Assembly (NCBI GenBank): GCA_025362795.1
Contig: JANYFE010000002.1
Location: 1 to 57,410 of the forward strand
From: Rhodobacterales bacterium
GTDB lineage: Bacteria > Pseudomonadota > Alphaproteobacteria > Rhodobacterales > Rhodobacteraceae
Reading direction: 5' to 3'
Length of the DNA stretch: 57,410 nt
The notes beneath the pieces were generated by a model. That model did no database searches. It saw only the letters and a list, made by a program, of their open reading frames with translations, and was not told where the DNA came from. The position numbers and the translations under genes were made by a program. Shown piece by piece: positions 1,571 through 35,089 of this stretch (within the stretch, counting starts at the first letter, position 1; the number at the start of each line of letters is the position of its first letter).

Positions 1571-1591
1571 TCCACTTATCCCAACTGTTCA
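1571..1591 (-). repeat. Right terminal inverted repeat of the IS3 element
   Basis: Read on the minus strand it is TGAACAG, TTGG, GATAAGTGGA. Its first three bases form the TGA that ends the adjacent amidase-like reading frame. Confidence 0.65.
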
Positions 1592-2881
1592 GTTTTCCCG
1601 AACCACCTCTGCCGTCCCCGCCGCCGGAAACGGCAAACCCTGCGTCATCGTGTAATCAATCCCATCCACTTCATAGGCAAATATCTTTGCCGAGGCACCC
1701 AAGACGTCGCCATACCCAAGCCCGGTGTCTCGCAGAGACCAGTGATCCGGCCGATAGATCGCAAATCCCCCCGAACCATGGGCCGCACACCGGCTCCAGC
1801 CGGCATACACCCCCATCGACCCGGTCAGACCCAAAGTCGCAACACCGGGGCGTTTGATCTGCGGATGATCCCAGTAGCTGGTCAAACGGCGCGGATCAGG
1901 ATGCGGATCGGGCGAAGACTTATAGCAAGACTGGGTCAGCAGGTCATCCGACAGTCGGGTCTGCCAAAAGAAATTCCCTCCAAACCGCGCGAGTTGACCG
2001 CCCCTGTCGAGCCAAGCCTCAAGATGATCCCGCATCTCCCATGTCCAGTACTCATCGTGTCCAACAATCAACGCGCGGTCGTGACCGTCCAAAGCGGTAG
2101 GGTCATTGTGCAGGTCGTGCTGTGTGGTGAAATCCAACACAATGCCCTGCGCTTCGCACCACAGGGCAAAAGGCTTCTCAAAAGCGGCCCAACCTGAAGA
2201 GGCATACTTCTTGGAAACCCCTTTGGCGCGGGCATAATCCATATGCGGATAGCGCGGACGCGTCAGCAATGGTGAAGCATGCGGAATACGCGGCGCATCT
2301 TTGGGCCACCTGACAAATCCCTTTGCCCAAGGCCGCAAGAGGCTGACATTCTCGGCAAAGTCAGTTTGCCGCATGCCGGTAATGCCGGTGTAATGATTGG
2401 ACCCGCCCCAGTCGTTGTAGGCACACCAGGTGCCGGTGGCGAGGACCATCAGGATTTTTGCTTTGGGCTGTCCGGTCTTGGATTTCACAACAAACATGTG
2501 TTCGGTTCGGTGGCCCGGGACCGTCAGAGCGATAGTGTAGACCCCGCTATTCCAATGGTCAGGAATAGCCAGACTAAATCTTTCTGGCCACTTGCATCCC
2601 GATACCGAACAATCGGTCGGCGTAGCGGCAAAATCCGTCGCAATGTCGGCCTCAAGCACGGCCTCGGGCGCGTTGCCATCACGAGATATGACCATTTTGG
2701 CCGTTGCAGCATTGCTTATGGCGTGCAACCGCAGAATGTCGCCCGAAGCATACGACAAGGCACCGGTGTAACCCCAGACTTGTGGGCGCGCCGCATTGGG
2801 TGATGCCATTTCAAAGTAGTGACCAGTGACGGAATCGCCATCATCATAAGGGCCCGCGACGAAGTGATCTTTCAGCGTCAT
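1589..2881 (-). CDS. N,N-dimethylformamidase beta-subunit-like protein, 3' end cut by IS3
   Basis: The 430-residue product resembles the large-subunit domain of N,N-dimethylformamidase and related proteins, a fold probably devoted to amide hydrolysis. Recognisable parts are a beta-rich N-terminus, TWCAYNDWGGSN at 151-162 and GHDEYWTWEMRDHLEAW at 274-290. The frame ends VVREN, and its stop codon is the first three bases of the IS3 terminal repeat. From memory, relatives continue for some tens of residues beyond this point, so the C-terminus is probably missing and activity is uncertain. Its ATG overlaps the stop of the upstream S9 peptidase (ATGA), making it the last gene of the long minus-strand operon. 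The substrate is unknown; a peptide or amide is only suggested by the neighbours. Confidence 0.75.
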   Translation of the reverse strand: MTLKDHFVAGPYDDGDSVTGHYFEMASPNAARPQVWGYTGALSYASGDILRLHAISNAATAKMVISRDGNAPEAVLEADIATDFAATPTDCSVSGCKWPERFSLAIPDHWNSGVYTIALTVPGHRTEHMFVVKSKTGQPKAKILMVLATGTWCAYNDWGGSNHYTGITGMRQTDFAENVSLLRPWAKGFVRWPKDAPRIPHASPLLTRPRYPHMDYARAKGVSKKYASSGWAAFEKPFALWCEAQGIVLDFTTQHDLHNDPTALDGHDRALIVGHDEYWTWEMRDHLEAWLDRGGQLARFGGNFFWQTRLSDDLLTQSCYKSSPDPHPDPRRLTSYWDHPQIKRPGVATLGLTGSMGVYAGWSRCAAHGSGGFAIYRPDHWSLRDTGLGYGDVLGASAKIFAYEVDGIDYTMTQGLPFPAAGTAEVVREN

Positions 2882-4668
2882 TGACCTGCCCCAGCAAAGG
2901 CTTCTTGGAGAAACCCTGCGGTGCTTGCCAAGTAAGTCGCAACATTGCCGCGACGAAAAATGCCGTGGCCTTCGTTTTCAAACAGCAGAACCTCATGCGG
3001 GATTGCCGCGGCCGTCAGTTCCCGAATTGCAGCATGGGTGTTTTCCGGGCCGACATTGCTGTCCGCAAGCCCGTGGACGATCAACAGGCGGCCTCGGATC
3101 AAATGAATGAAATTGCCGGGGCTGGCGTTGGCATATTTCTCCGGGAACTGCGCTGGTGTGCCGCCCATCATTTCCTCTGAATAGGCACGGCCATGCGGCA
3201 TTTCAGTTTCGTGAAAGTCGATGTCCAGTCGGTACATGCCACACATCGGAACCGCTGCGTTCACCAGATCAGCATGCCGGGTGATGGCAAACCAACTGGA
3301 AAACCCACCATACGAATTGCCGGCCACAGCAATTTTTCCTTTTTGGGCATACCCTTTGGCGATAGCCGCCTCGATCCCCATGCGGATGTCGGATTGTTCG
3401 CGCCCGCCCCAGCCATCCACCTTGACCGCCTCACGCCAGGCAAAACCGAAACCGGTGGAGCCGCGATAATTGGGGTCCAACACAGTATACCCAAGCTGTA
3501 CCCAGAAACCGATCTTGGGGTTGACCCAATCTTCCGAATGCCATGTCGGGCCGCCGTGAACGTAAGCAATGAAGCCCTTTGACTGACCTTCAGGTTCGTA
3601 AAGCCAGCCTTGACAATCCAGTCCGTCGGCCGTTTTCCACCAGAATTCGCGCCCTGCCCGATGCCGTCTGAACGACGGCGTGGCGGTCCACAACCGCAAG
3701 CAAGAACCATCCTGCCTGATCCGAACCAAATCGTGCGGACCGTCTGCATCATAGGCTTCGGCAATCCAACCTCCGTCCGGCAAACAGGCATGGGGCAACA
3801 GGGTCCGTCGGCCGGAATTGTTAGGAAAATTTCCGGCGACAACCGTATGTGAATGATCGTGCGCAATACACAGAAAGCTACCATCTTGCCCAGGACGCAC
3901 TTCATGCGGCAGAAGGTCTGGCTCACCATTGAGCCAGTCCACCTCTTCGGTTGAGACCGTTAAAACTCCCAAAAAATCTACACCGTCCCGATCCGTGACG
4001 AAGGCGATCTGATCGTCGGAAATCCACTCGCCACGTGTATTGCACGTGTCATTCAGGCACAAAATCTCGCGCAGGTCGGCGCCATCAAGCCCCATTGCCC
4101 AAAGTTGGGTCGAGCCTGGCGAATGATCGTTCAAGTTTAGAAGGATTTGCCGCCCCGAAGGCGATAGGCTGGGCGGGCGGTCGAAGAAATTCTTCGTCCG
4201 TGCAAGACATTTTCGGGAACCTGTGTCCAGGTCTTGCAGCCATACCATCCCACCTTCGATGACCCGTTGGGCCGTATAATCGTAGTCGGTACAAAACACG
4301 ATCGCCTTGCCGTCGCGCGTCAACCTGCCGCCGTAGACATAGTGGCTATCTTGCTTGGGCGTCAGCAGATGCAGGCGGTTTCCGGCGGTACGGTCCAACA
4401 GCATAAGGTGATCATGTTCGCTGGCATGGCGAGACTGGGCAAGAATTAGGCGCATGCCATCGGGTGAAACATCGCGGATCAGATGGTGATCAGTGCCAAA
4501 GGTAAGTTGCTCGGGCGGGGCACTGCCATCGGTCAGGGTGGCATAGACCTCGTCGACTTCGTTCAGGCCGGACATGCAGAACAGCGCCCATTTACCATCG
4601 CCGGAGGCATGAATGTTGGACAGTTGCGGCAATGCAGCCCAAGCTCGCGCTAATTCATGAATGTTCAT
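2878..4668 (-). CDS. S9-family peptidase (prolyl-oligopeptidase / acylaminoacyl-peptidase type)
   Basis: This 596-residue serine peptidase has an N-terminal WD40-like beta-propeller (about residues 20-335) and a C-terminal alpha/beta-hydrolase domain. The oxyanion-side HGGP is at 371-374, the nucleophile Ser452 in GNSYGG, Asp536 in HGLADSN and His568 in NEGHGIF, so the triad is complete. There is no signal peptide, so it should act in the cytoplasm on short or N-blocked peptides. Its ATG directly follows the TGA of the transporter ATPase gene and its stop overlaps the next gene. This fits a role in cleaving compounds delivered by the two oligopeptide-type importers. The exact specificity cannot be read from the sequence. 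Confidence 0.9.
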   Translation of the reverse strand: MNIHELARAWAALPQLSNIHASGDGKWALFCMSGLNEVDEVYATLTDGSAPPEQLTFGTDHHLIRDVSPDGMRLILAQSRHASEHDHLMLLDRTAGNRLHLLTPKQDSHYVYGGRLTRDGKAIVFCTDYDYTAQRVIEGGMVWLQDLDTGSRKCLARTKNFFDRPPSLSPSGRQILLNLNDHSPGSTQLWAMGLDGADLREILCLNDTCNTRGEWISDDQIAFVTDRDGVDFLGVLTVSTEEVDWLNGEPDLLPHEVRPGQDGSFLCIAHDHSHTVVAGNFPNNSGRRTLLPHACLPDGGWIAEAYDADGPHDLVRIRQDGSCLRLWTATPSFRRHRAGREFWWKTADGLDCQGWLYEPEGQSKGFIAYVHGGPTWHSEDWVNPKIGFWVQLGYTVLDPNYRGSTGFGFAWREAVKVDGWGGREQSDIRMGIEAAIAKGYAQKGKIAVAGNSYGGFSSWFAITRHADLVNAAVPMCGMYRLDIDFHETEMPHGRAYSEEMMGGTPAQFPEKYANASPGNFIHLIRGRLLIVHGLADSNVGPENTHAAIRELTAAAIPHEVLLFENEGHGIFRRGNVATYLASTAGFLQEAFAGAGQ

Positions 4669-5640
4669 TCATTCCTCTATGAAATGGCACGCAGCCTGAC
4701 GCACGCCAAAGCTGCGAAGTTCGGGCCGTTCGGTGTGACAGCGTGGCCTGGCGATCGGACACCGGCTGGCGAAGACGCAACCCGGCGGAGGGGACAGGGC
4801 AGAGGGAAGTTCGCCGCGCAGCGATTGGCCAATACGGCCTTTTTCACGCCTTGGGTCTGGTTCGGGGACCGCGCTCATCAAAGCCTTCGAATAGGGGTGC
4901 AGCGGCTTGGCATAAAAATCGTCGCGGGGTCCGGTTTCCATGACCCGGCCCAGACACATCACCATCACCTCGTGGCTGATGTGGCGGACAACGGCAAGGT
5001 TGTGGGAGATGAACACGAGGGCAAGCCCCAGCTGATCTTGCAGGTCCATCAACAGGTTAACCACCTGCGCCTGAATGGAAACATCCAAAGCGGACACCGG
5101 TTCGTCGCAGATGACCAACTTTGGCCGGCCTATAATCGCGCGTGCAATGCCGACGCGTTGGGCCTGCCCGCCCGACAATTCGTGAGCATACCGTTGCGCG
5201 AAATCGGCGGATAGACCGACAAGGCGAAGCGAGTCTATTGCCCGGCTGTTCAGCTCCGCGCGGCCAAGACTGGGCTCAAAGGTGGCCAAGGGCCGAGAGA
5301 CGATCCGCCCAATCGTCATCCGGGGATCAAGGGCAGCGACAGGATCCTGGAAAATGATCTGCATTTCAGAACGCCGCTTGCGCAGGGTGTCGGCTGACAT
5401 GGTGGCCATGTCTTGCCCCTGCCACAGGACAATGCCGGAAGTCGGCTTGATCAGGCGCAGCAAGGCACGACCCAAGGTTGATTTGCCACATCCGCTTTCG
5501 CCCACAACGCCCAAGGTGCGGCCTGCGTCGAGTGATAGACTGGTATCGTGAACGATGGGCAGAATACGGGATTTTGAAAACACCCCTGCACCGGAAACGG
5601 GGTAGCCGACATTCAGGCGCGCAGCTTGCAGCAGTGTCAT
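4669..5640 (-). CDS. ABC transporter ATP-binding protein, OppF/DppF type (importer 2)
   Basis: A 323-residue cytoplasmic ATPase subunit of an oligopeptide-type importer. It carries Walker A GESGCGKST at 47-55, the signature LSGGQAQRVGIAR, Walker B LVICDEPVSALD, and the C-terminal oligopeptide-transporter extension with HPYSKAL and paired cysteines. The start is taken at the ATG overlapping the stop of the preceding ATPase gene (ATGA) rather than at an earlier in-frame start at 5661. It pairs with the next ATPase upstream to power the permeases at 6598-8401. It is directly followed by the S9 peptidase gene. Confidence 0.92.
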   Translation of the reverse strand: MTLLQAARLNVGYPVSGAGVFSKSRILPIVHDTSLSLDAGRTLGVVGESGCGKSTLGRALLRLIKPTSGIVLWQGQDMATMSADTLRKRRSEMQIIFQDPVAALDPRMTIGRIVSRPLATFEPSLGRAELNSRAIDSLRLVGLSADFAQRYAHELSGGQAQRVGIARAIIGRPKLVICDEPVSALDVSIQAQVVNLLMDLQDQLGLALVFISHNLAVVRHISHEVMVMCLGRVMETGPRDDFYAKPLHPYSKALMSAVPEPDPRREKGRIGQSLRGELPSALSPPPGCVFASRCPIARPRCHTERPELRSFGVRQAACHFIEE

Positions 5641-6608
5641 GTCGCACCTGTCAGGTGGCATGACACTAGACGCTCCGGTGCGATCGCGATGAGGGGCGGT
5701 CGGGTCGCATCACAAATCGGGATTTTCAAAGTACAGCGTGGAGCGAAAGGACAGCCCGGAAGCATTGCACCGCCGGATCTTGGGGTGCCGGGGATGGTCC
5801 CAAGACGCTTTGTCAGCGCATCTTCCAACCGAGGTGTGGCGGCAAGCAGCCCCTGGGAATAGGGGTGCGCTGGACTTGCGAACAAAACTTCGGCTTCACC
5901 CTCTTCCATCACCCTTCCACCATACAAGACGATCACCCGGTCGCAAAGTCGGGCAACAACGCCAAGGTCGTGGGTAACAAGAATGATGGCGGTGCCGATT
6001 TCGCGCCCAAGTTCGGCCATGAGGTCAAGGACTTGGGCCTGAATCGTCACGTCAAGGGCCGTGGTGGGTTCATCCGCCAGCAGCAGGGCTGGTCGCACGA
6101 GCAGCGCCATTGCGATCATCACCCGTTGGCGCATCCCGCCCGAGAATTCGTGTGGATAATGGCGGGCGCGGCGGGCTGCGTCGGGTATTCTCACCCGGTC
6201 GAGCATGGCAACAGCGGCTTTCCATGCTTCGGCTTTCGACAAGCCCTTATGGACACGAAGCCCCTCTGCCAACTGATCGCCAATCCGCATATACGGGTTA
6301 AGCGACGTCATCGGGTCTTGAAAGATCATCGACAAAGTGACGCCACGGATGCTGTCCAACGCCATAGGACCGAGCGCCAGCAGATCTTGACCCTGAAAAC
6401 TGGCCGTGCCCCGCGCAGTGCCATTGGAGGCCAGCAAACCCATCAGACTAAACAGTATCTGACTTTTGCCCGACCCGCTTTCACCGACAATCCCCAGAAC
6501 TTCCCCCGGTTTCACGTCGAAACTGACGCCATCCACGGCGGTCATCGCGCCCGCTGGCAGGCGAAATTTGACCTGAAGGTCACGGACAGAGAGCAAGCTA
6601 TCTGTCAT
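5637..6608 (-). CDS. ABC transporter ATP-binding protein, OppD/DppD type (importer 2)
   Basis: A 323-residue ATPase with Walker [10 protein letters not shown] at 42-50, signature [12 protein letters not shown], Walker [13 protein letters not shown], switch histidine in [10 protein letters not shown] and a C-terminal Opp extension (HPYSQGLL, then a cysteine-rich PGCPFAPRC). The start chosen is MTDSLLSV, which overlaps the upstream permease stop by 11 nt; an ATG at 6623 is also possible. It forms the second nucleotide-binding subunit of importer 2. This is a clear family member with unknown substrate. Confidence 0.92.
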
Positions 6609-7464
6609 TGGGATCAAACGCATCTCTCAGGCCGTCTGCAATGAAATTGAGGCAGAACAGAACCAAAGCCAGAAGGATTCCGGGCAACAACAAGAGGCGC
6701 AGGTCGGTGTCCATTGCAGCGGTGCCTGTCTGAATCAAATTTCCCCAACTGGCCTGGGGTTCCTTGATGCCAATGCCCAGAAAGGACAGGAAGCTTTCCG
6801 ACAGGATCACCTCGGGCACCAAAAGAGAACCGTAAACAATCACGACAGAGGCACAATTCGGCACGATGTGTTCCAGCACGATCTGCCAAGGTGTCATTCC
6901 ACCGGCGCGTGCCGCTTCAACAAACTCGCGTTTCGAAAGGGATTGCGCCTGAGCGCGGACGATCACAGCGGGGGTCAACCACAGGGTGAATACTATGGCA
7001 GCAAAGAGGGCGACGTTGCCGCCGCCAAACAGCAGGCTGAGAAGGATGACGAGGATTACATAAGGAAACCCGTACAAAATCTCGACCATGCGCATCATCA
7101 GCCGATCCGTTCGGCCGCCGGCATAACCTGCGACAGCACCATACAAGACGCCGATGAAACCGGCGGTAATGGCACCCAGAAAGCCGATTGCCAAGGAAAT
7201 CCGACCGCCTTCCAGCACCCGAAGCAACAGATCACGGCCAAAATCATCTGTGCCGAAGGGGTGGGGCGAGGCAAGGTCGATAGGTGCGCCGATAAAGTCG
7301 AAGTCGGCATCCTCACCGGTGAAAGGAAAAGCGAAGGGGCCGAAAAAGCACGAGGCAGCGATCAGCGCAAGTAATGCAACCGAGATCATGGCGAGGCGGT
7401 TTTGGGCGAAGCGTCGCAGTTGCAGCTGAAACGTCGATAGGGAACGTGGGGTGATATCAACCAT
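6598..7464 (-). CDS. ABC transporter permease, OppC/DppC type (importer 2)
   Basis: A 288-residue inner-membrane protein with an N-terminal OppC-type hydrophobic segment (residues about 20-45), further membrane helices, and the coupling motif EAARAGGMTPWQIVLEHIVP that contacts the ATPases. The start at MVDITPRS overlaps the preceding permease stop by 8 nt. A periplasmic loop follows helix 1 and contains GTDDFGRDLL, typical of this subunit. It works with the OppB-type partner encoded just upstream. Confidence 0.9.
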   Translation of the reverse strand: MVDITPRSLSTFQLQLRRFAQNRLAMISVALLALIAASCFFGPFAFPFTGEDADFDFIGAPIDLASPHPFGTDDFGRDLLLRVLEGGRISLAIGFLGAITAGFIGVLYGAVAGYAGGRTDRLMMRMVEILYGFPYVILVILLSLLFGGGNVALFAAIVFTLWLTPAVIVRAQAQSLSKREFVEAARAGGMTPWQIVLEHIVPNCASVVIVYGSLLVPEVILSESFLSFLGIGIKEPQASWGNLIQTGTAAMDTDLRLLLLPGILLALVLFCLNFIADGLRDAFDPNDR

Positions 7465-8401
7465 TGCCACGCGCCCTGGGATCCAACCAGCCGCGCACAA
7501 GGTCGGTCAGAATGTTGAAAACAATCAGCAACGCGCCATAAAGCAGCGTGATCCCCATGACCAGAGGATAGTCCCGGTTCAGCGCTGCATCGACAAAATG
7601 GCGGCCAATGCCGGGCACGGCAAACACCGTCTCGATCAGGATCGACCCCGTGATGATGCCCGCAGTGGATGGTCCAAGATAGGCGATCACTGGCAGCAGC
7701 GCCCCCTTGAGCGTGTGCTTCATCAAAGTGCGCCGCGCACCGATACCCTTTGCGCGGGCAGTCCGGACGTAATTTTCCCGCATCGTCTCGATCATTGAGC
7801 CGCGGGTCAGCCGCGATATGTATGCAATGTTGGGCAGGCTCAGCACCAGCACTGGCATAACCAGTGACCGCCACCCCTGATCAGACCCTCCGACCGGCAG
7901 CCAGTTCAGTTTGAGCGCGAAAACGACCTGAAATAACGGCCCGATCACGAAAATCGGCACCGCGATGCCCACGACCCCCAATATACCTGCGACATAGTCC
8001 GTCGGTGTATTGCGGCGCAGCGCCCCGGCAATCCCAAGGGCGACGCCGACCATCGCAGCCACGACGATGGCCCAGAACCCGATGGTCAGCGAATACGGCA
8101 GGCCCGACGCAATCAGATCACCCACGGAGTAATCACGAAACCGTGTGGATGGGCCAAAGTCGAAATGCAGAAGGCCCCAAACGTATCGTGCGAATTGCTG
8201 CCAAACCGGCTCGTCCAGATGGAACGCCGCCTTGATATGCTCCAGCACTTCGGGCGAGATTTTGCGATTCTTGGAAAAGGGCCCACCAGGGGCAAGACGC
8301 ATGACGAAGAAAGTCAAAGTGACCAGCGCCGCCAAGGTCAGCGTCCCTTCCCACAGCCTCCTACCCACAAACCGCAGCACCGGACTCGCTTTCCCTGTCA
8401 C
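7457..8401 (-). CDS. ABC transporter permease, OppB/DppB type (importer 2)
   Basis: A 314-residue inner-membrane permease. It begins with the characteristic N-terminal helix and RLAPGGPF motif, has about six membrane segments, and carries the coupling motif TARAKGIGARRTLMKHTLKGA. The end (VFNILTDLVRGWLDPRAR) is the usual DppB ending. It lies 49 bp downstream of the binding-protein gene and overlaps the next permease, consistent with co-transcription. Confidence 0.92.
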   Translation of the reverse strand: MTGKASPVLRFVGRRLWEGTLTLAALVTLTFFVMRLAPGGPFSKNRKISPEVLEHIKAAFHLDEPVWQQFARYVWGLLHFDFGPSTRFRDYSVGDLIASGLPYSLTIGFWAIVVAAMVGVALGIAGALRRNTPTDYVAGILGVVGIAVPIFVIGPLFQVVFALKLNWLPVGGSDQGWRSLVMPVLVLSLPNIAYISRLTRGSMIETMRENYVRTARAKGIGARRTLMKHTLKGALLPVIAYLGPSTAGIITGSILIETVFAVPGIGRHFVDAALNRDYPLVMGITLLYGALLIVFNILTDLVRGWLDPRARGNG

Positions 8402-8450
8402 CTAGACGCAAACATCACCCGGAGGGCGATGCCCTTTTCGGCCTTTGCCG

Positions 8451-10037: not shown

Positions 10038-10065
10038 CACAGCATGCTCCCCATTCTTGTTACAG

Positions 10066-11184: not shown

Positions 11185-11265
11185 TCAAATTATCCAGACG
11201 GTGAATTCGCTAATGTCAGGTTGATCAGGGCCCAGCGATTCCGTCAAGCATTAGCAGCCAAACCA

Positions 11266-14776: not shown

Positions 14777-14826
14777 CGTCCTGAACTGTTCCCCCGTTCA
14801 CGCCGGCAAAAATACTCCACAGGGGT

Positions 14827-14847
14827 CCGGGGGTGTGAAACCCCCGG
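14827..14847 (-). terminator. Intercistronic hairpin after the importer-1 binding-protein gene
   Basis: CCGGGGG and CCCCCGG form a perfect 7-bp stem with a 7-nt loop, just past the binding-protein stop on the minus strand. A T5 run follows on that strand after about 15 nt. It may act as a partial terminator or an mRNA-stabilising structure between a highly expressed binding protein and its permeases. Confidence 0.5.
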
Positions 14848-14855
14848 CCTGTCCG

Positions 14856-16373: not shown

Positions 16374-16400
16374 TTGAAGCATCCCTATTGTTTTCATTGT

Positions 16401-17969
16401 CTAATTTCCAACAAGTTTTCGCGCCAGCAGGTATCCCGGCCCGGCCCCGGTGCCCGCACCGGGCCAGACGGCGGCCCCGGTCAGGAACAGGTTGCGGATC
16501 GGCGTCACCCCGTCTGCATGGCCAAGGGCGGGGCGGAACAGGAAGTTCTGGCTCAGATGATGGCTGCCGCACAACTGATCGCCTCCGACCAGGTTGGGGT
16601 TTTCGGAGTGCAGTTCGACGGGGGTAACGATCCGCTTTCCCAGAATTTTCGCGGTGGTCCCCGGCGCATAGCGGTCGAGGATCGCCAGCACGCGGTCGGC
16701 AAAAGGGGCAGCGGCCTGCGTCCAGTCAGTTGCAGCAATTTCACCCTTGGCGTCGCCCCGGATCACCCCTGGCACCATGCGGACCTGCACCCACAGCACA
16801 TGTTTGCCGTCCGGCGCACGGCTGGGGTCAAACGCCGTCGGCTGACCTACCACCAGCACCGGCTCGTCCGGCAGCAGGCCCGCCTTGGCCTGTGCATAGG
16901 TCCGGGCCATTTGATCCAGCGAGGGCGCAAGCTGGACATAGGCGAAGCTTTGCAAGGCCGTGCCGGCGGTCCAATCCGGCAACCCCTCCAGCGCCAGATG
17001 AATCATCATCGTGCCCGGCGCAGGGTCGAAACGGGTCATGGCGGCATCAAAGCGGGGCGTTGTGGCCCCGGTCAGGCGGGTCAGGGCGGCGGGGGCGACC
17101 CCGGCAATCACCGCCTTTTCGGCCATCACGCGGCGCCCGTCTGCCAGCTCTATTCCGGTGGCTTTGCCGCCTTCGCGCAGGATGCGGGATACCGGCGCAT
17201 TGCAGTCCACAACCCCGCCGCGCGACTGAATCGCGGCCACCAACGCCTTGATAACAGTGTCTGATCCGCCTTTGCCCAAGGCCATACCAAAGGCCTGTCC
17301 GGCCATCCCTTCAAGGTAGGGGAACAGCGCGCCGCCCGCGATGTCGGGGGCGAAATCAAGATGCATGCCCCAGGCCGCCAACATGGCCTGAACCTTGGGA
17401 GAATCGAAGGAGGCGGTCAGGAAATTGCGCGGTGATTGCACCAGAAAGCGGGTCAGTTCGAGCGTTCCGGCAAAGCCTTTGGCACGGAGTATTTTGAACA
17501 CGAAATATGCCAGCGCACGAAAGCGCATCGGAGTGCCCAGAAGGCCGAACAGATGCGGGGCCTCGGCAGGGAAAGCCGCGACCATGCCGGCCCAGGTTTC
17601 GGCGTCTTTGGCCGAAAACGCGGCGATGCGGGCGGTGGTTTCGGCCAGATCGGTAGAGACGCCGACCCAGGTGCCATCCGGGAAGGCAGAGGCGGCGGGC
17701 TTGGAAACCGGAATGAATTCAAGGCCATGCTTGATCAGCTCGCCCGCGTAAGTCTTGAAAAACGGCGAGCCTGCGAACAGCGACAGGTTCATCGCGGCCC
17801 AGTCATGGCGAAAACCGGGCAGCGTATAGGCGCCGGTCTTGACCGCGCCGCCCGCGACCGGCGCCTGTTCAAACAGACCGACGCGCCAGCCCCGCGCGGC
17901 CAGATGCAACGCTGCGGCCAGCGTGTTGTGCCCTGCTCCGATGAAAACCGCGTCAAAGCTGGCTGGCAT
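16401..17969 (-). CDS. Phytoene-desaturase-like FAD-dependent oxidoreductase (copy 1)
   Basis: A 522-residue flavoprotein of the phytoene dehydrogenase/amine oxidase superfamily. An N-terminal dinucleotide fold has GAGHNTLAAA at 11-20 and the acidic end FEQ. The C-terminal FAD motif NLFLTGAAVWPGAGTGAGPG is present. It is likely cytoplasmic. No carotenoid genes are nearby, so a carotenoid role is unlikely. The neighbours are peptide-type importers and hydrolases, which suggests oxidation of an amine or ring in the catabolised compound. The ATG is preceded by GGAG with 6-nt spacing. It is the first gene of the minus-strand operon and is a distant paralog of the protein encoded at 18908-20461. 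Confidence 0.88.
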   Translation of the reverse strand: MPASFDAVFIGAGHNTLAAALHLAARGWRVGLFEQAPVAGGAVKTGAYTLPGFRHDWAAMNLSLFAGSPFFKTYAGELIKHGLEFIPVSKPAASAFPDGTWVGVSTDLAETTARIAAFSAKDAETWAGMVAAFPAEAPHLFGLLGTPMRFRALAYFVFKILRAKGFAGTLELTRFLVQSPRNFLTASFDSPKVQAMLAAWGMHLDFAPDIAGGALFPYLEGMAGQAFGMALGKGGSDTVIKALVAAIQSRGGVVDCNAPVSRILREGGKATGIELADGRRVMAEKAVIAGVAPAALTRLTGATTPRFDAAMTRFDPAPGTMMIHLALEGLPDWTAGTALQSFAYVQLAPSLDQMARTYAQAKAGLLPDEPVLVVGQPTAFDPSRAPDGKHVLWVQVRMVPGVIRGDAKGEIAATDWTQAAAPFADRVLAILDRYAPGTTAKILGKRIVTPVELHSENPNLVGGDQLCGSHHLSQNFLFRPALGHADGVTPIRNLFLTGAAVWPGAGTGAGPGYLLARKLVGN

Positions 17970-18116
17970 TTATTGCTCCGGTTGACGTCGGGATATTTGC
18001 AAATGCATTTAATTCTGTCTAGTCTGATTCAGGCGGGTTTGGCCAAAGTGGCTGTCTTCTTTGCGTCTTGCCCACGTCTTGAATGCGTGAAGACAACTGG
18101 CGACAGGGAGAATGAC
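17970..18116. promoter_or_regulatory. Divergent promoter region of the catabolic island
   Basis: This 147-bp region separates the two arms and must hold both promoters. An AT-rich stretch contains two overlapping perfect 10-bp palindromes, ATTTGCAAAT (17995-18004) and AAATGCATTT (18001-18010). That is the kind of site bound by MarR-family dimers. The MarR gene of the right arm (20458-20928) is the natural candidate regulator. I did not identify the promoter boxes with certainty. Confidence 0.55.
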
Positions 18117-18908
18117 ATGACGTCTGCAACGACGCTGGCCGATCTGGCCGGAATGCTGGCCTCGGGTGGGGTTGAAGTGGTGGACCTCACCGGGGTTCTG
18201 GGGCCGGAAACGCCGCTGTTGAAGCTGCCGCCGGATTTTGCCCGCGACACCCCGGCGATCGAGATTCACCGGATCAGCGAGTATGACAAGGACGGGCCGT
18301 TCTGGGCGTGGAATTGGCTGAAGGTCGGCGAGCATTCGGGGACGCATTTTGACGCGCCGCACCACTGGATCACCGGGCGCGATTTCGCCGACGGCTATAC
18401 CGACACGCTGCCGGTGCAGCGGCTGGTGGCCCCGGTCAACGTGTTGGACTTTGCGGCGGAATGTGCGGCCGACCCCGATTTTCTGCTGACCATTGCGCAT
18501 GTCAAAACCTGGGAAGCCAAACACGGTGCCATCAAGGCGGGCGAATGGGTCGTGCTGCGGTCGGACTGGGATGCCCGCGCCCATGACGCCGGGTTGTTCC
18601 TGAACGCCAACGAGACCGGGCCGCATACGCCGGGGCCGACTTCCGAGGTGGTGGAATATCTGATCGGGCTGGGCATTGTCGGCTGGGGGTCGCAGTGCAT
18701 CGGCACGGACGCGGGTCAGGCCGGGGGCATGACCCCGCCCTATCCGGCGCATAACCTGCTGCACAAGAACAACCGCTACGGGCTGGCCTCGCTGGCCAAT
18801 CTGGACAAGTTGCCGCCCAAGGGCGCGATCCTGATCGCGGCACCGTTGAAGATCAAGAATGGCACCGGATCGCCGATCCGGGCGCTGGCGCTGGTGCCGA
18901 GGGGCTGA
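18117..18908 (+). CDS. Cyclase family protein (bacterial kynurenine-formamidase-like metal hydrolase)
   Basis: A 263-residue protein with the family metal-binding motif HSGTHFDAPH at 73-82. The family includes kynurenine formamidases and related hydrolases that open formyl-amides or lactones. The start follows AGGGAG with good spacing. Its stop overlaps the ATG of the following FAD oxidoreductase gene, so the two are translationally coupled. In this island it could hydrolyse an N-formyl or cyclic intermediate of an aromatic compound. True kynurenine formamidase is possible, but no other kynurenine-pathway gene is visible here. Confidence 0.87.
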   Translation: MTSATTLADLAGMLASGGVEVVDLTGVLGPETPLLKLPPDFARDTPAIEIHRISEYDKDGPFWAWNWLKVGEHSGTHFDAPHHWITGRDFADGYTDTLPVQRLVAPVNVLDFAAECAADPDFLLTIAHVKTWEAKHGAIKAGEWVVLRSDWDARAHDAGLFLNANETGPHTPGPTSEVVEYLIGLGIVGWGSQCIGTDAGQAGGMTPPYPAHNLLHKNNRYGLASLANLDKLPPKGAILIAAPLKIKNGTGSPIRALALVPRG

Positions 18909-20461
18909 TGACCGACCATGTCATCATCGGTTCCGGCATCAACGCGCTTGTGGCCGGCGCGATGCTGGGGCTGCGGGGGCAAAAGGTTTTGCTGCTGGAG
19001 CGGTCTGACCGCGCCGGCGGCTGCCTGCGGTCGGAGGAGGTGACGCTGCCCGGGTTTACCCATGACGTGATGGCGGCGACCTGGGTGCTGTTCATGACCT
19101 CGCCCGCCGGGGCTGCGCTGGGGCCGGATCTGGCGCGGCATGGCTTTGAATATTGCCATGCAGCGCATCCGACGGCGGTTTTGCGGCCGGATGGGACGGC
19201 GCTGGTCGCGGCGATGGACCGGGCGGCGAATGTGGCGGCGTTCAACGCGCTGACGGCGGGGGATGGTGACCGGCATGCCCGCGATGTCGGAGCGATCGAG
19301 GCGGATGCGCCGTTTCTGTTTGCTTTGCTGGGCGGGTCGTTGTGGTCGTGGCCGATGGTGAAACTGCTGTGGGGGCAGGTGCGCAAACGGGGCTTGCGCG
19401 GGCTTGCGGCATGGATGGGTGCGGCGCTGGCTTCGGCGCGGGGCTGGCTGGAGGGCTATCACAGTCCGCTGGTGCAGGCGTTGTGGGCGCCCTGGGTGCT
19501 GCATTGCGGGCTGACGCCGGAAAGCGCCTATTCGGGGCAGATGGCCAAAGTTGTGGCGTTCGCGCTGGAGGCGGCGGGGGCGCCGGTCGTGAAGGGCGGG
19601 GCGGCGGTGGCGGTGACGGCGTTTCGGCAGCTGATCGAGGAGAAGGGCGGCGAGATACGCTGCGGCGCAGATGTGGAGCGGATACTGGTGCGCGATGGCC
19701 GCGTGACGGGGGTTCGGCTGTTCGGTGGCGCAGAGATTGCCTGTGGGTCGGTGCTGGCGTCGGTGGCGCCGGGGCAGTTGTACGGGCGGTTGCTGGAGGG
19801 CGTGAACCTGCCGAAGGATCAGGCGGCGGCGCGGGGGTTCCGGCATGGGCGGGGGAATTTCCAGCTGCATTACGCGCTGGACCGCAGCCCGGAATGGTTG
19901 ACGGCGGGGCTGGAGGATGTGGCGCTGATCCATCTGTCGGATGGCATTGATGCCGTGTCGAAATCGGCCAACGAGGCAGAGCGGGGGATGCTGCCGGAGG
20001 TGCCGACGATTTGCGTGGGACAGCCGTCGCGGCTGGACCCGTCGCGCTGCCCTGACGGCAAGGCGGTCTTGTGGCTGCAAATCCCCGATGCGCCGCGCGT
20101 GATCAAGGGCGATGCGGGCGGCGAGATTGACGGGCAAGACTGGGCAGCGGTGCGCGAAGCGTTTGCGGACCGTATCGAGGCGATATTGGCGCGGCATATC
20201 AAGGATTTCGCTGCGATCAAACTGGCGCGGCGGGCCTATTCGCCTGCGGACCTTGAAGCGATGAACATCAACCTTGTCGGCGGTGATCCCTATGGCGGGG
20301 CTTGTTCGATTGACCAGTTTTTCATCTGGCGGCCCTTTGCCCATTCGACCAATGGCAGGGGGACAGTGCGCGGCTTGATCCATATCGGGGCCTCGACCCA
20401 TCCCGGCCCCGGATTGGGCGGCGGATCGGGCTATAACGCGGCGAAAAGGCTGGGGGCATGA
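18908..20461 (+). CDS. Phytoene-desaturase-like FAD-dependent oxidoreductase (copy 2)
   Basis: A 517-residue flavoprotein with the N-terminal FAD fold GSGINALVAG at 8-17, a central substrate domain, and a C-terminal FAD motif near GLIHIGASTHPGPGLGGGSG. It shares layout and motifs with the protein at 16401-17969, including the shared phrase VGQPSRLDPSRCPDGK against VGQPTAFDPSRAPDGK. The two are therefore paralogs placed at the head of opposite arms. They may act together as two subunits or in successive oxidations. It overlaps the cyclase gene upstream and the MarR gene downstream by 4 nt each. Confidence 0.88.
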   Translation: MTDHVIIGSGINALVAGAMLGLRGQKVLLLERSDRAGGCLRSEEVTLPGFTHDVMAATWVLFMTSPAGAALGPDLARHGFEYCHAAHPTAVLRPDGTALVAAMDRAANVAAFNALTAGDGDRHARDVGAIEADAPFLFALLGGSLWSWPMVKLLWGQVRKRGLRGLAAWMGAALASARGWLEGYHSPLVQALWAPWVLHCGLTPESAYSGQMAKVVAFALEAAGAPVVKGGAAVAVTAFRQLIEEKGGEIRCGADVERILVRDGRVTGVRLFGGAEIACGSVLASVAPGQLYGRLLEGVNLPKDQAAARGFRHGRGNFQLHYALDRSPEWLTAGLEDVALIHLSDGIDAVSKSANEAERGMLPEVPTICVGQPSRLDPSRCPDGKAVLWLQIPDAPRVIKGDAGGEIDGQDWAAVREAFADRIEAILARHIKDFAAIKLARRAYSPADLEAMNINLVGGDPYGGACSIDQFFIWRPFAHSTNGRGTVRGLIHIGASTHPGPGLGGGSGYNAAKRLGA

Positions 20462-20928
20462 ACGACGAGACCGCCATCCATCTGCGTCTGGGCGAGATCG
20501 GCCTCGGCAATTACGCGCCCTATCTGATGAACCGGATCATGGGGCGCTATAATGCGGCCTTGCGCGCCGAGATGGCGGAACTGGGCCTGACCACGCCCAA
20601 GATGCGGGCGCTGGCGGTGCTGTCGGTGGTCGAAGGTCCGCTGATCCGGGAATTGTCGGTTTACACGGTGGTCGAGGCCTCCACGTTAAGCCGGGCGCTG
20701 GACCAGTTGCGGGCGGATGGTCTGGTGCGGCGCGAGGTCGATGCGTCTGACAGCCGCGCGGTGCGGGTGTTCATCTCCGATGCGGGGCGGGCAACGTTTG
20801 AAACCTTGTGGCCGCATATGGCCGCCGGTCAGGCGCGGATGTTTCGCGGAATCCCAGAGGCCGAACGGCAGGCCTTTGTCGGCACGTTGCAGAAGATGCT
20901 GGCGAATATACGGAGGCACGACATCTGA
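20458..20928 (+). CDS. MarR-family transcriptional regulator
   Basis: A 156-residue protein with the MarR winged-helix fold. It has a helical N-terminus, LTTPKMRALAVLSVV, recognition-helix region VVEASTLSRALDQLRADGLVRRE, and the conserved wing DASDSRAVRVFISDAGR. Dimeric MarR repressors usually respond to small aromatic ligands. Its gene overlaps both neighbours, and the palindromes in the divergent promoter region at about 18000 are its likely target. I infer that it represses both arms until the substrate or an intermediate is present. Confidence 0.93.
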   Translation: MNDETAIHLRLGEIGLGNYAPYLMNRIMGRYNAALRAEMAELGLTTPKMRALAVLSVVEGPLIRELSVYTVVEASTLSRALDQLRADGLVRREVDASDSRAVRVFISDAGRATFETLWPHMAAGQARMFRGIPEAERQAFVGTLQKMLANIRRHDI

Positions 20929-23072
20929 TGGCAGAGCGCAGTTTCAAAGCGGAAGTCGAGCATTTGCGGCTGGGCGATGGCGGCACCTTTACCGGCGAGG
21001 GGATACTGGCGCTGACCAAGGCCTTGCTGGAAAACGGCGTGGGCTATGTCGGCGGCTATCAGGGTGCGCCGATTTCGCACCTGATGGACGTGCTGGCCGA
21101 TGCACAGGATTTGCTGGGCGAATTGGGGGTCCGTTATGAGGCCAATGCCAACGAGGCGGCGGCGGCGGCCATGCTGGCGGCCTCGGTGCATTACCCCATT
21201 CGCGGGGCGGTGACGTTCAAGGGGCCAGTCGGCGTGAATGTGGCGTCGGACGCGCTGGCGAACCTTGCCTCGTCGGGGGTGACGGGCGGCGCTTTGGTGA
21301 TTGTTGGCGAGGATTACGGCGAGGGTTCCTCGATCATGCAGGAACGCAGCCATGCCTTTGCGATGAAATCGCAGTTCTGGCTGTTGGACCCGCGCCCCAA
21401 TCTGCCGTCGATCGTGAAAGCGGTTGGCGACAGTTTTGCACTGTCAGAGGCGACGAATACCCCGGTCATGCTGATGGTCCGCATCCGGTCGTGCCATGTC
21501 ACCGGGCAATTCGCCACCCGCGACAATCAGCGGCCGAAACTGTCGGTCAAGGATGCGCTGAGCGCCCCAAGGTCGGATTTCAACCGGGTGGTCCTGCCGC
21601 CGATGTCCTATGTCCACGAACAGGACAAGATCAAGAACCGCTGGCCCGCCGCACAGGCCTTCATCAAGGCCCACGGGTTGAACGAGGTATTCGGGCCGGA
21701 TGCCAAGGTGGGCATTGTCGTGCAGGGCGGCATGTACAACGGCACCATTCGCGCCCTGCAACGGCTGGGGCTGGCCGATATTTTTGGCGAGACGCAGGTC
21801 CCCTTGTATGTGCTGAACGTGACCTATCCGCTGGTGCCGGACGAGTTTCTGGCCTTCGCGGCGGGCAAGGACCATCTGCTGGTGATCGAGGAAGGCCAGC
21901 CGGAATTCATCGAACAGGCACTGGGCGCAATCCTGTACCGGGCTGAGGCCCATGTGAAACTGCATGGCAAAGGTGCGTTTCCGATGGCAGGGGAATACAC
22001 CGGCACGGTGATGTTTCAGGGCATCGAGGCGTTTCTGAAAACCGCAGCACCAGGGATGCTGCCGGCGGTGGTGCGGGCCCCGAATGCGGACAAGCCGCAG
22101 ATCCCCGACCTGTCGAAAACCGTGCCGATCCGGCCACCGGGGTTCTGCACCGGCTGTCCGGAACGGCCGATATTCGCGGCGATGAAGCTGGTGGAACAGG
22201 AACTGGGCAAGCACCAGATTGCCGCCGACATTGGCTGTCATCTGTTCGCTTCATTGCCGCCATTCGAGATTGGCGGCGCGACGATGGGCTACGGACTTGG
22301 GCCGGCAGCCAATGGCGCGTTTGATGGCGGCGGCGCGCGCCGGCCGATTGCCATCATCGGCGATGGCGGGTTCTGGCATAACGGGCTGTCGTCCAGTTTC
22401 ACCAATATGGCGTTCAACAAATCGGACGGCGTGGCGATCGTGGTGGACAACTATTACTCCGCTGCAACGGGCGGGCAGGACAACATGTCGTCCCGCGCCG
22501 ACAATACCACCAAATCGACCAAGAACCCGATTTCCAAGGCGCTGAAAGGCGTGGGGATCGACTGGGTCCGGCAGATTGACCACACCTATGATGTGGGGAA
22601 GATGCGCGACACGCTGCGCGAGGCTTTGACCACCAACACACCGGGGCCGAAGGTGATTGTCGCGTCATCGGAATGCATGCTGAACAAGCAGCGCCGCGAA
22701 AAGCCTTTGCGCGTGGCGGCGATCAAGGCGGGGCGCCGGGTGGAAGCGCCGCGGTTTGGCGTCGACGAAGACATCTGCACCGGCGACCACGCCTGTATCC
22801 GGCTGTCGGGCTGCCCGTCCTTGTCATTGAAAAGACTGGACGATCCGTTGCGCGATGACCCGGTGGCGTCGATTGACCAAAGCTGTGTCGGCTGTGGCAA
22901 TTGTGGTGAGGTGGCGGATGCCGCGATCCTGTGCCCCAGCTTTTACCGCGCCGATGTGGTGCACAACCCCCGCGCGTGGGAGCAGCGGCTGTCGGCGTTT
23001 CGGTTGCGGATCATTGGCCGGCTGCAAGCCCGGCGCGCGGCGCGGCGGCTGTCGTTCGAGGTCGCGCCATGA
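20928..23072 (+). CDS. iorA: Indolepyruvate ferredoxin oxidoreductase, alpha-type subunit
   Basis: A 714-residue thiamine-diphosphate enzyme subunit. It has an N-terminal pyrimidine-binding domain (LTKALLENGVGYVGGYQGAP), a central domain, a ThDP/Mg-binding domain with GDGGFWHNG and the downstream VVDNYYSAATGGQDN, and a C-terminal ferredoxin-type part with CTGDHAC and CVGCGNCG clusters. Relatives convert aryl pyruvates with CoA to aryl-acetyl-CoA and reduced ferredoxin. The ATG overlaps the MarR stop, and its own stop overlaps iorB. Occurrence in a presumably aerobic bacterium is known for this family. It suggests that the island ends in a 2-oxo acid with an aromatic side chain. Confidence 0.9.
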   Translation: MAERSFKAEVEHLRLGDGGTFTGEGILALTKALLENGVGYVGGYQGAPISHLMDVLADAQDLLGELGVRYEANANEAAAAAMLAASVHYPIRGAVTFKGPVGVNVASDALANLASSGVTGGALVIVGEDYGEGSSIMQERSHAFAMKSQFWLLDPRPNLPSIVKAVGDSFALSEATNTPVMLMVRIRSCHVTGQFATRDNQRPKLSVKDALSAPRSDFNRVVLPPMSYVHEQDKIKNRWPAAQAFIKAHGLNEVFGPDAKVGIVVQGGMYNGTIRALQRLGLADIFGETQVPLYVLNVTYPLVPDEFLAFAAGKDHLLVIEEGQPEFIEQALGAILYRAEAHVKLHGKGAFPMAGEYTGTVMFQGIEAFLKTAAPGMLPAVVRAPNADKPQIPDLSKTVPIRPPGFCTGCPERPIFAAMKLVEQELGKHQIAADIGCHLFASLPPFEIGGATMGYGLGPAANGAFDGGGARRPIAIIGDGGFWHNGLSSSFTNMAFNKSDGVAIVVDNYYSAATGGQDNMSSRADNTTKSTKNPISKALKGVGIDWVRQIDHTYDVGKMRDTLREALTTNTPGPKVIVASSECMLNKQRREKPLRVAAIKAGRRVEAPRFGVDEDICTGDHACIRLSGCPSLSLKRLDDPLRDDPVASIDQSCVGCGNCGEVADAAILCPSFYRADVVHNPRAWEQRLSAFRLRIIGRLQARRAARRLSFEVAP

Positions 23073-24619
23073 CGCTGCACGCGGCATTGCCGCCCCTCCC
23101 GCAAGATCCGCGGCTGGGGGGGATCATCAAGCTGGCGGTGCTGGCGGTGGGGGGGCAGGGCGGCGGCGTGCTGACCTCGTGGATCGAGGATCTGGCCCGT
23201 GGCAATGGCTATGCGGCGCAGGCGACATCGGTCGCGGGGGTGGCGCAGCGCACGGGGGCCACGATCTATTATGTCGAGATGTGCCCGGTATCGCCGCGCC
23301 CGCCGGTCTTTGCGCTGATGCCGGCCGCGGGCGATGTGGATATCATGATCACATCAGAGATGATGGAGGCCGGGCGGTCGATCATCCGGGGGTTTGTGAC
23401 GCCGGACCGCACAACGCTGATCACCTCGACCCACCGGGCGTTGGCGGTCAGTGAAAAGATGATGCCGGGCGATGGGATTGCCTCCAGTGCCGAGGTGATG
23501 GCGGCGGCCGAGATCGCGGCGCGACGGCTGATCAGCGCCGATTTCGATGCGCTGGCGATTGCGCAGGGGTCGGTGATTTCGGCGTCGTTGTTCGGGGCGC
23601 TGGCGGCGTCCGGGGCGCTGCCGTTTCCGGTTCAGGCATTCGAGGCGGCGATCATGGCGGGTGGCAAGGGGGCGGAGGCCTCGTTGCGGGCGTTTCGCGC
23701 CGGGTTCGAGGCGGCGCAGTCGCCGGTGGGGCAGTCGCCGGTGGGGCAGACCGCGCCCATAGTCCCTGCTGCCGCCATCGCCGCCAGGGGGCCGGCGCAC
23801 CTGATGGCGCAATGGCAGACCCTGACTGCCCGCGTGCTGCGGCTGCCGGCGCAGGTCGCCGCATTTGCGCGGCCCGGGTTGCAGAAGGTGGTGGATTTTC
23901 AGGATCTGGCGTACGGCGCGGAATACCTGACCCGTGTCGAATCCGTGCTGGCCCGCGATACCAGCCCGGACCACGGTCTGACCGCGCAGGCGGCGAAATA
24001 TATCGCCAATGCAATGGCTTATGATGATGTGATCCGGGTGGCCGACCTGAAAACACGAGCCAGCCGCCAAAGCCGCATTGCCGCTGAGATGGGGGTGGAC
24101 AGTGCCAAAGTCATGCATGTGACCGAATTCTTTCACCCGAGGGCCGAAGAAATCATTGGCATGCTGCCTGCCAGACTGGGCGCAAAGCTGGACGCCAGCC
24201 CGGTCTGGACCGCCCGGATCGACCGGATCTTCAACAAGGGCCGGCGGTTGCGGTCGGACGGGTTGACAGCCTATGTCCTGCTGTATGCCCTGAGCGGCCT
24301 GAAATCCCGCCGCCGCCGTTCGTTCCGGCATGCCCAGGAACAGGCCCATCTGACCCGCTGGCTGGACACCGCACTTGGCTATCTGCCCAATCACGCGCTG
24401 GCCACCGAGGTCGTGAAATGCCGCCGCCTGATCAAGGGCTATTCCGACACGCACACCCGGGGTCTGTCCAAGTTCGACCGTGTGCTGGCGGGCGTGGCGC
24501 TGGTGGCCAAGCGCGAGGATGCCGCCGACTGGACCCGCCGGCTGCGCGAAGCCGCCTTGCAGGACGAAGCGGGCCGGGCGCTGGATGGGGCGCTGCAAAC
24601 CGTCGCCAGTTTTAGCTGA
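23069..24619 (+). CDS. iorB: Indolepyruvate oxidoreductase subunit beta-family protein with long C-terminal extension
   Basis: A 516-residue partner of the preceding alpha-type subunit. Residues about 15-205 form the gamma/catalytic-type domain (VLAVGGQGGGVLTSW near the N-terminus) that pairs with IorA. The remaining about 290 residues are the extra C-terminal domain seen in proteobacterial long IorB proteins (DUF6537). A Gln/Pro/Gly linker (QSPVGQSPVGQ) lies between them and is encoded by a perfect 15-bp tandem duplication at 23717-23746. Translation is coupled to iorA by an ATGA overlap. It is the last gene of the plus-strand arm. Confidence 0.88.
   Translation: MTLHAALPPLPQDPRLGGIIKLAVLAVGGQGGGVLTSWIEDLARGNGYAAQATSVAGVAQRTGATIYYVEMCPVSPRPPVFALMPAAGDVDIMITSEMMEAGRSIIRGFVTPDRTTLITSTHRALAVSEKMMPGDGIASSAEVMAAAEIAARRLISADFDALAIAQGSVISASLFGALAASGALPFPVQAFEAAIMAGGKGAEASLRAFRAGFEAAQSPVGQSPVGQTAPIVPAAAIAARGPAHLMAQWQTLTARVLRLPAQVAAFARPGLQKVVDFQDLAYGAEYLTRVESVLARDTSPDHGLTAQAAKYIANAMAYDDVIRVADLKTRASRQSRIAAEMGVDSAKVMHVTEFFHPRAEEIIGMLPARLGAKLDASPVWTARIDRIFNKGRRLRSDGLTAYVLLYALSGLKSRRRRSFRHAQEQAHLTRWLDTALGYLPNHALATEVVKCRRLIKGYSDTHTRGLSKFDRVLAGVALVAKREDAADWTRRLREAALQDEAGRALDGALQTVASFS
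23717..23746 (+). repeat. 15-bp tandem duplication in the iorB linker
   Basis: Two identical copies of CAGTCGCCGGTGGGG lie end to end. They add QSPVG twice to the linker between the two IorB domains and keep the frame. Confidence 0.8.
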
Positions 24620-30020: not shown

Positions 30021-30048
30021 CCCGGTTCAGGGGCAAGAGACGTGACGT

Positions 30049-35085: not shown

Positions 35086-35089
35086 CCGT

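Follow-up and report, generated by a model that had tools for sequence, protein, structure and literature searches.

A probable isatin-catabolic gene block beside a separate, probable peptide-uptake locus in a Rhodobacterales bacterium

What compound is broken down by a 23-kb run of genes that joins two peptide-type importers to a peptidase, two flavoproteins and a 2-oxoacid oxidoreductase, and do these genes serve one pathway at all? The question is raised by positions 1589-24619 of a 57,410-nucleotide stretch from the genome of a Rhodobacterales bacterium (NCBI GenBank assembly GCA_025362795.1, 3.84 Mb in 108 contigs; contig JANYFE010000002.1, positions 1 to 57,410), the whole of which is called the window here. 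An original prediction, made from the letters of this stretch, described one island of two divergent operons in which an amide is imported and cut and its core is oxidized to an aryl-acyl-CoA. The 23 kb is, however, two independent loci lying side by side, M1 (1589-11184) and M2+M3 (11266-24619), and not one pathway. We consider it likely that M1 is a peptide unit and that M2+M3 is an isatin-catabolic unit. In the latter the Dpp-type importer SBP2/ABC2 might bring in an oxindole-type compound, which the flavoproteins FLV1 and FLV2 would oxidize to isatin. The cyclase CYC would then open isatin to isatinate, a step strongly indicated by orthology, and IorAB is proposed to decarboxylate isatinate oxidatively with CoA, giving 2-aminobenzoyl-CoA that would be taken over by a monooxygenase/reductase-like gene cluster located elsewhere in the genome, on contig C44. 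A MarR-family regulator may govern both divergent operons through one box.

The features of M2+M3, with gene families checked by Pfam and NCBIfam profile searches of the window proteins, are as follows.

11266-14776, minus strand: M2, Dpp-type ATP-binding cassette (ABC) importer 2 (ABC2), with ATPases at 11266-12066 and 12059-12925 and permeases at 12922-13800 and 13766-14776 (Pfam; part of the conserved block)
14856-16397, minus strand: M2, solute-binding protein SBP2 (PF00496, E 3.1e-72; 65-89% matches in 23 other genomes of the family)
16401-17969, minus strand: FLV1, CrtO-like flavoprotein 1 (PF01593; CrtO model 198.3 bits, cut-off 1000)
17993-18025, between the divergent operons: operator-like box ATATTTGCAAATGCATTT, then promoter-like TGTCTAG (box shared, with variants, by the window and 26 other loci)
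18117-18908, plus strand: CYC, isatin hydrolase B orthologue (PF04199; PDB 4j0n, E 1.5e-135 over residues 2-262; metal motif and pocket)
18908-20461, plus strand: FLV2, CrtO-like flavoprotein 2, proposed oxindole/dioxindole to isatin oxidase (PF13450, PF01593; CrtO model 141.4 bits, cut-off 1000)
20458-20928, plus strand: MarR-family regulator (PF12802, E 6.7e-11)
about 20925-23072, plus strand: IorA, alpha subunit of a thiamine pyrophosphate (TPP)- and iron-sulphur-dependent 2-oxoacid oxidoreductase with isatinate as proposed substrate (TIGR03336, 269.8 bits, cut-off 650.9; clade and context)
23069-24619, plus strand: IorB, beta subunit with DUF6537 (PF01558, PF20169; NF006179, 653.3 bits, above the cut-off of 348)

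CYC probably starts at 18117 and not at 17436, and the start codon of IorB is the ATG at 23069. The MarR gene, placed by Pfam between FLV2 and IorA, was absent from the gene list of the original prediction, as were the transposase ORFs at 344-1431 and the flavin-reductase-like gene at 24693-25184 described below. For individual families that prediction held up throughout: two complete Opp/Dpp-type importers (4669-10226 and 11266-16397), an S9 peptidase, an N,N-dimethylformamidase-like protein, an AstE/AspA-type protein, a PF04199 cyclase, two phytoene-desaturase-like flavoproteins, which are CrtO/CrtI-like, and the IorA and IorB families are all present, and the short gene overlaps are real (2878-2881, 20458-20461 and 23069-23072).

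The division into two loci comes from synteny in relatives. A sample of 198 genomes of the family holds orthologues of the M1 AstE gene (58-69%) in 6 other genomes and of the cyclase (at least 66%) in 31 others. Five genomes besides our own hold both (G077, G034, G121, G068 and G028), with AstE and cyclase on different contigs in all except G034, where they are about 617 kb apart, and in none of the five does the ABC2 gene of this block stand beside AstE. A scan of the genome_contigs set for AstE, of which the best 80 of at least 487 loci were kept, gave a group of 16 loci at 53-73% and 64 others at no more than 43%; ABC2 or SBP2 of this block lay beside AstE in 0 of the 16, at least three of which are also family-sample genomes (G077, G028 and G121). 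Read leftwards from 35051, the window is collinear with the same-genus genome G077 down to 24718, at a flavin-reductase-like gene (24693-25184, to the right of IorB, with dnaX at 25323-27065 as the right border beyond it); about 100 bp further on, G077 continues into AstE. The window therefore holds about 13.5 kb at this place, M2+M3, that G077 lacks there and carries on another contig. In G077 and in locus L212 this reductase-like gene has dnaX and AstE as neighbours, but in G104 and G178 it is next to IorB. The divergent pair thus comprises 11266-17969 and 18117-24619, with 1589-11184 apart from it in the relatives examined.

The single pathway, in which AstE, S9 peptidase and DMFA would cleave an imported amide and the flavoproteins and IorAB would oxidize the core to an aryl-acyl-CoA, is therefore very unlikely, although all the genes are adjacent here and ABC2F and AstE, which share a strand, are 82 bp apart, so that read-through is possible. 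It could also draw on the presence of the cyclase in 6 of the 7 sampled genomes with M1 AstE (p 7e-5), but these are close relatives and the value ignores kinship, while G093 has M1 without the cyclase, and this AstE is missing from at least 25 of the 31 other genomes with the cyclase. What the original prediction joined is thus separate in relatives for the left 9.6 kb, and the right arm and the second importer stay one unit; an aryl-acyl-CoA as end product fits the evidence for the right arm, where it would be 2-aminobenzoyl-CoA. A break in GC content was dropped as proof of two origins: M2+FLV1 (0.605) and M3 (0.654) are unequal in the window, but relatives carry them as a single block, with a difference of at most 0.023 in the five measured.

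Orthology to the solved isatin hydrolase B strongly indicates that CYC would hydrolyse isatin, a reaction that is Mn-dependent in isatin hydrolases. The Labrenzia aggregata enzyme (LaIHB, PDB 4j0n) aligns with CYC along residues 2-262 with unshifted numbering (E 1.5e-135), and PDB 5nmp is matched at E 6.7e-85. The metal motif of isatin hydrolases, HxG[T/A]HxDxPxH, is present as HSGTHFDAPHH at residue 73, and GLAS is found at 222. LaIHB (PDB 4J0N, 4M8D) and CYC are alike in HxGTHxDxPxH, GLAS, A224, S225, W65, W84 and an aromatic pocket, and CYC differs in having W for F63 and Y for F209. The reference motifs (GLAS/GLQC and the metal motif) and pocket residues of LaIHB are those given in the accessible part of PMC6117287, a text that is silent there on neighbouring IorAB, flavoproteins or importer ("operon" and "indolepyruvate" give 0 hits). 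The earlier name of formamidase-like cyclase fits the family, PF04199, and would better be replaced by isatin hydrolase. A kynurenine formamidase would share this Pfam family, and ABM, the monooxygenase considered below, also serves anthranilate, so that the block could in principle act in a kynurenine route from tryptophan to anthranilate. This is extremely unlikely, however, since the arylformamidase model TIGR03035 gives CYC 22.1 bits against a cut-off of 223.05 (E 1.2e-4), in contrast to the isatin hydrolase B match with its GLAS motif, and no tryptophan dioxygenase or kynureninase family is among the Pfam and NCBIfam hits of the block.

Isatinate is 2-aminophenylglyoxylate, an aryl-glyoxylate and hence a 2-oxo acid, and 2-oxoacid:ferredoxin oxidoreductases convert 2-oxo acids to acyl-CoA and CO2. 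A comparable reaction is that of the phenylglyoxylate oxidoreductase of Azoarcus, which turns an aryl-glyoxylate and CoA into aroyl-CoA and CO2; its subunit layout differs from that of IorAB, and the likeness drawn here is one of reaction. From gene linkage and this chemistry we argue that IorAB would convert isatinate and CoA to 2-aminobenzoyl-CoA. IorA has a TPP motif and two Cys clusters, in an alpha/beta layout with IorB that is like that of the classical indolepyruvate:ferredoxin oxidoreductase, from which IorAB departs in its low alpha-subunit score and in its company of isatin hydrolase and ABM.

The linkage was followed in a sample of 398 genomes of the phylum, 29 of which have IorA; 26 stretches were read from 23 of these, leaving out our own genome and five others of genera already sampled. 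Where IorA is at least 59% identical, 17 of 19 contexts hold CYC, ABM or an IadD-type Rieske gene, and where it is below 57% none of 7 does. A tree of IorA, built from 50 of 52 extracted rows with loci matching IorA in short pieces excluded, has a 100/100 branch that sets 43 rows, the window's among them, apart from the remaining 7; linkage to CYC, ABM or IadD is seen in 41 of the 43 and in none of the 7. Plasmid records, counted by presence on the same record with distances read by eye, agree: of 46 records whose IorA match reaches about 60%, 40 also carry CYC, and of the 4 with lower matches none does. The two genes are mostly close, up to about 21 kb apart in Ruegeria pomeroyi. The six plasmid records without CYC belong to Hydrogenophaga, Variovorax and an uncultured record, and locus L202, the one stretch read whose contig is equal to one of these in length, holds an IadD-type gene.

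IorAB might still be a true indolepyruvate oxidoreductase forming indole-3-acetyl-CoA upstream, with the isatin hydrolase acting later in the same tryptophan pathway. The family name, the auxin-degrading iad loci, which degrade indole-3-acetate and carry iorAB (PMC9613470, in the part accessible), and the IorB score above the cut-off of NF006179 ("indolepyruvate oxidoreductase subunit beta family", a subfamily model for the broader beta family) would favour this. It is unlikely, given the 269.8 bits of IorA against the 650.9 required for the classical alpha subunit, the lack of any aminotransferase family among the Pfam and NCBIfam hits of the block, the frequent adjacency of ABM and the existence of minimal clusters consisting of CYC-MarR-IorAB only (L079, L083 and L093).

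Downstream of IorAB the evidence comes from ABM, a 2-aminobenzoyl-CoA monooxygenase/reductase-like gene. Co-occurrence was counted in the family sample with kinship ignored, using 32 of 73 genomes for the cyclase (at least 66% only), 68 of 72 for ABM (four with only the OYE part set aside), 7 of 8 for the indole monooxygenase (one at 28% set aside) and 7 of 44 for AstE (at least 58% only). ABM is present in 29 of the 32 cyclase genomes and in 39 of the 166 without the cyclase. It lies 2-6 kb from IorB in G077, G034, G104, G178 and G142 and in the same stretch as IorAB in Alloyangia, Caballeronia and the actinomycete Tsukamurella, and this linkage fits 2-aminobenzoyl-CoA as the product of IorAB. 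In our own genome ABM is on contig C44 with genes for a short-chain dehydrogenase/reductase (SDR), MarR, acyl-CoA dehydrogenase, thioesterase, RidA and a benzoate-CoA-ligase-like protein. The general argument that IorAB must supply the thioester because there is no CoA ligase was dropped, as C44 and G034 have a benzoate-CoA-ligase-like gene and Tsukamurella an AMP-binding protein. No ligase is among the genes listed from ABM to MarR in Alloyangia, where the gene table is incomplete, and none shows between IorA and the CN-hydrolase gene in L200. Loci L200, L302 and L207 carry IorAB and ABM with gentisate-dioxygenase-like, FAH and CN-hydrolase genes, a company that suggests ring cleavage after 5-hydroxylation.

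M2+M3 is a conserved unit and, from its gene content, probably an isatin-catabolic one. Among 20 family contexts, 12 have the full set of 11 genes from ABC2F to IorB, and of the eight incomplete ones some are truncated where a contig or stretch ends. Outside the family the whole block is found in two genomes (L295 and L296), and Tritonibacter mobilis and Sulfitobacter sp. S190 have it on plasmids. Of 18 plasmid records with an FLV2 match of at least 56%, CYC is present on 17 and IorA on 16. The upstream modules differ between relatives. In Paracoccus saliphilus an auxin-oxidation (iad-type) gene set is followed by CYC-MarR-IorAB; genes for an indole monooxygenase, a flavin reductase and an SDR stand near the block in G034, G121, G138, G587 and Alloyangia; and in Azospirillum thermophilum the row reads SDR, indole monooxygenase, flavin reductase, transporter, FLV2, cyclase.

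For both FLV1 and FLV2 the top-scoring model is that of the ketolase CrtO, with scores that fall well short of its equivalog cut-off, and by analogy a ketolation would suit the conversion of oxindole C3 to the C3 ketone of isatin. The position of FLV2 between the indole monooxygenase and cyclase genes in Azospirillum thermophilum suggests that FLV2 may make isatin from an oxindole-type intermediate, and a role in isatin formation appears better supported for FLV2 than for FLV1. In our own genome the indole monooxygenase that stands near the block in relatives has no match at E 1e-40 and there is no close IadD (best match 30%), so FLV1 and the importer would be the likely entry. FLV2 is rare outside the family (4 of 385 class-sample genomes at E 1e-90, two of these in the family itself); the flavoprotein tree was made from 43 chosen rows. 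A search of the genome for tryptophanase with PF01212 met a family too broad to discriminate, and a supposed flavoprotein pair in Tsukamurella was rejected, as only one of the two is related (41%). Two more CrtO-like flavoproteins (28% to FLV2) lie in a row at C59:14261-20028 of our own genome (L003, L004, L305), beside Rieske-like genes.

The regulation of the two operons could lie in the 147-bp gap between FLV1 and CYC. This gap contains the operator-like box, which aligns, with variants, in the window and 26 other loci, and through which MarR probably controls both divergent operons. In our own genome the FLV1-CYC box is the sole site at up to two mismatches, with three more at three mismatches against four for the reversed pattern. 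Further sites at up to two mismatches, where about none would be expected by chance, precede CYC in L079 and Paracoccus saliphilus and lie in the FLV1-FLV2 interval of L118 and L188 and the IorA-ABM interval of L192. It occurs once in the window and not at M1, which again speaks against a single pathway.

Several observations weigh against these proposals. IOR-type enzymes are often oxygen-sensitive. Two of the 19 phylum contexts are unlinked (L184 and L194), and G148 (L082) has CYC, FLV1, FLV2 and ABC2 without MarR or IorAB in its 20-kb context. Three of the 32 cyclase genomes lack ABM (G014, G028 and G108), 39 genomes have ABM without this cyclase, and the benzoate-CoA-ligase-like gene of our own ABM cluster means that anthranilate could be activated without IorAB. 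At up to two mismatches the box was not found in L083, L119, L120, L300, L301, L302, L190, L196 or L197, nor was it found at the ABM cluster of our own genome, where it was looked for. In Variovorax anthranilic acid is restored by a set of nine iad genes (iadC to K2) that does not include iadAB, so that, as far as the accessible part of PMC12633357 goes, IadAB is not needed there to reach free anthranilate. Finally, a Mesorhizobium loti plasmid record (L120) that carries FLV1-SBP2-ABC2 and FLV2 shows no match to CYC or to IorA, so a different role of the flavoproteins is conceivable. Such gene sets could mean that the block serves isatin or oxindole detoxification or signal quenching, the importer and flavoproteins feeding another reaction and CYC removing isatin as a by-product, and the Sulfitobacter indolifex plasmid, where FLV1-ABC2 and FLV2 have no CYC between them, might be read in the same way. 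That plasmid, however, carries CYC and IorA about 60 kb away, and the co-occurrence of IorAB and ABM points to carbon use, making detoxification quite unlikely. The neighbours in L120 include molybdenum-hydroxylase-like subunits, cupin, RidA and FAH genes.

How isatin catabolism of this kind would relate to known systems can be asked of two sets of loci. The iad auxin-degradation loci of Variovorax, Bradyrhizobium and Achromobacter have iorA/iorB homologues (IadA/IadB), MarR control, and isatin and isatinic acid as intermediates (PMC9613470, accessible part). The window is like them in its iorA/iorB homologues and MarR gene, and its IorAB clade is shared with loci holding IadD-type genes (e.g., L190, L191, L193 and L303). 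In contrast to them, its block has no Rieske oxygenase (IadDE), AMP-ligase or thiolase, and has flavoproteins and a Dpp importer instead. The iif clusters degrade indole via 3-hydroxyindolin-2-one and reach anthranilate by a cofactor-free oxygenase, and they are said to have no isatin gene in the accessible part of PMC6221969, a review that does not settle whether indole degradation really passes through isatin. Their indole monooxygenase, SDR and flavin reductase are like those near the block in relatives, unlike our own genome, which gives no match to that monooxygenase at E 1e-40.

More tentatively, the IorAB clade may be an isatinate (2-aminophenylglyoxylate):acceptor oxidoreductase, catalysing a post-isatin step common to the degradation of indole, auxin (iad) and oxindole in bacteria from Alphaproteobacteria to Actinomycetota, with the window as a new entry route in which two CrtO-like flavoproteins oxidize imported oxindole to isatin under one MarR operator. 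If so, this would give a function to IadA/IadB, marker genes of iad loci to which the accessible parts of PMC9613470 and PMC12633357 assign none, and would place isatin hydrolase in a CoA-thioester route to 2-aminobenzoyl-CoA and not to free anthranilate. It would also bear on the standing of isatin as an indole-degradation intermediate, the question in PMC6221969, and correct the plasmid-record names "cyclase", "indolepyruvate oxidoreductase" and "NAD(P)/FAD-dependent oxidoreductase". No proposal of isatinate conversion to 2-aminobenzoyl-CoA was found in titles and abstract openings; it may be in print elsewhere, as subscription papers lie mostly outside the search.

What, then, does M1 do? 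Its genes are the following.

1589-2881, minus strand: DMFA2_C protein (DMFA; N,N-dimethylformamidase beta subunit-like, C-terminal part), possible amidohydrolase (PF20254, E 1.3e-62)
2878-4668, minus strand: S9-family peptidase (PF00326, E 1.9e-35; GNSYGG at residue 450)
4669-8401, minus strand: Opp-type ABC importer 1, with ATPases at 4669-5661 and 5637-6623 and permeases at 6598-7500 and 7457-8401 (PF00005, PF08352, PF00528)
8451-10226, minus strand: SBP1, OppA-like solute-binding protein (PF00496, E 2.1e-73; OppA model 293 bits, below cut-off), the true start probably lying inside this open reading frame (ORF)
10066-11184, minus strand: AstE/AspA-type (M14-like) deacylase or dipeptidase (PF24827, E 5.2e-16; PDB 8ein, E 7.2e-67; HADE at residue 40)

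M1 is best read as a unit for uptake and cleavage or scavenging of peptides or N-acyl-peptides, because an OppA-like binding protein and an S9 peptidase accompany the AstE and DMFA proteins. The DMFA protein matches PDB 8huy (N-acetyl-(R)-beta-phenylalanine acylase, E 2.5e-10) and 6lvb (dimethylformamidase, E 3.3e-5), with matches centred on an H-x-E stretch. Of the 16 loci, 6 have M1 complete from AstE to DMFA and 11 have at least the part between AstE and S9, both included, and L213 and L214 hold it in part only. In L212 (6600-10056), from a Rhodobacteraceae metagenome-assembled genome (MAG), SBP1, ABC1 and S9 between AstE and DMFA match only in fragments, as if decaying. The closest named AstE relatives among the best 80 of at least 487 loci are Rhodobacterales, headed by a Rhodobacteraceae MAG and two MAGs labelled Pseudorhodobacter antarcticus. 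M1 AstE is, like the cyanophycin dipeptide hydrolases, of the M14/AstE-AspA type, with about 40% to the wider family and the match to PDB 8ein, which we take to be a member of it. It is unlike them in forming a separate group (53-73% within, at most 43% to the rest of those 80 loci) and in being coupled to Opp, S9 and DMFA genes. The hydrolase family is named in the accessible part of PMC10206079. No cyanophycinase or cyanophycin synthetase family is among the M1 genes by Pfam, a search confined to the window and not extended to the flanks of relatives. The ORFs upstream of M1 in relatives were listed for a regulator and gave no conclusive candidate.

Transposase ORFs (344-1431), presumably of IS3 type judging by eye from the translation, lie at the left end of the contig directly left of the DMFA gene. 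Truncation of this gene by the insertion sequence element is not supported, the matches in three relatives being 1263-1278 nt long. To the right, 28167-40007 clusters serralysin C-terminal-type and RTX-repeat proteins, an RNase T2-like protein and a sulfotransferase.

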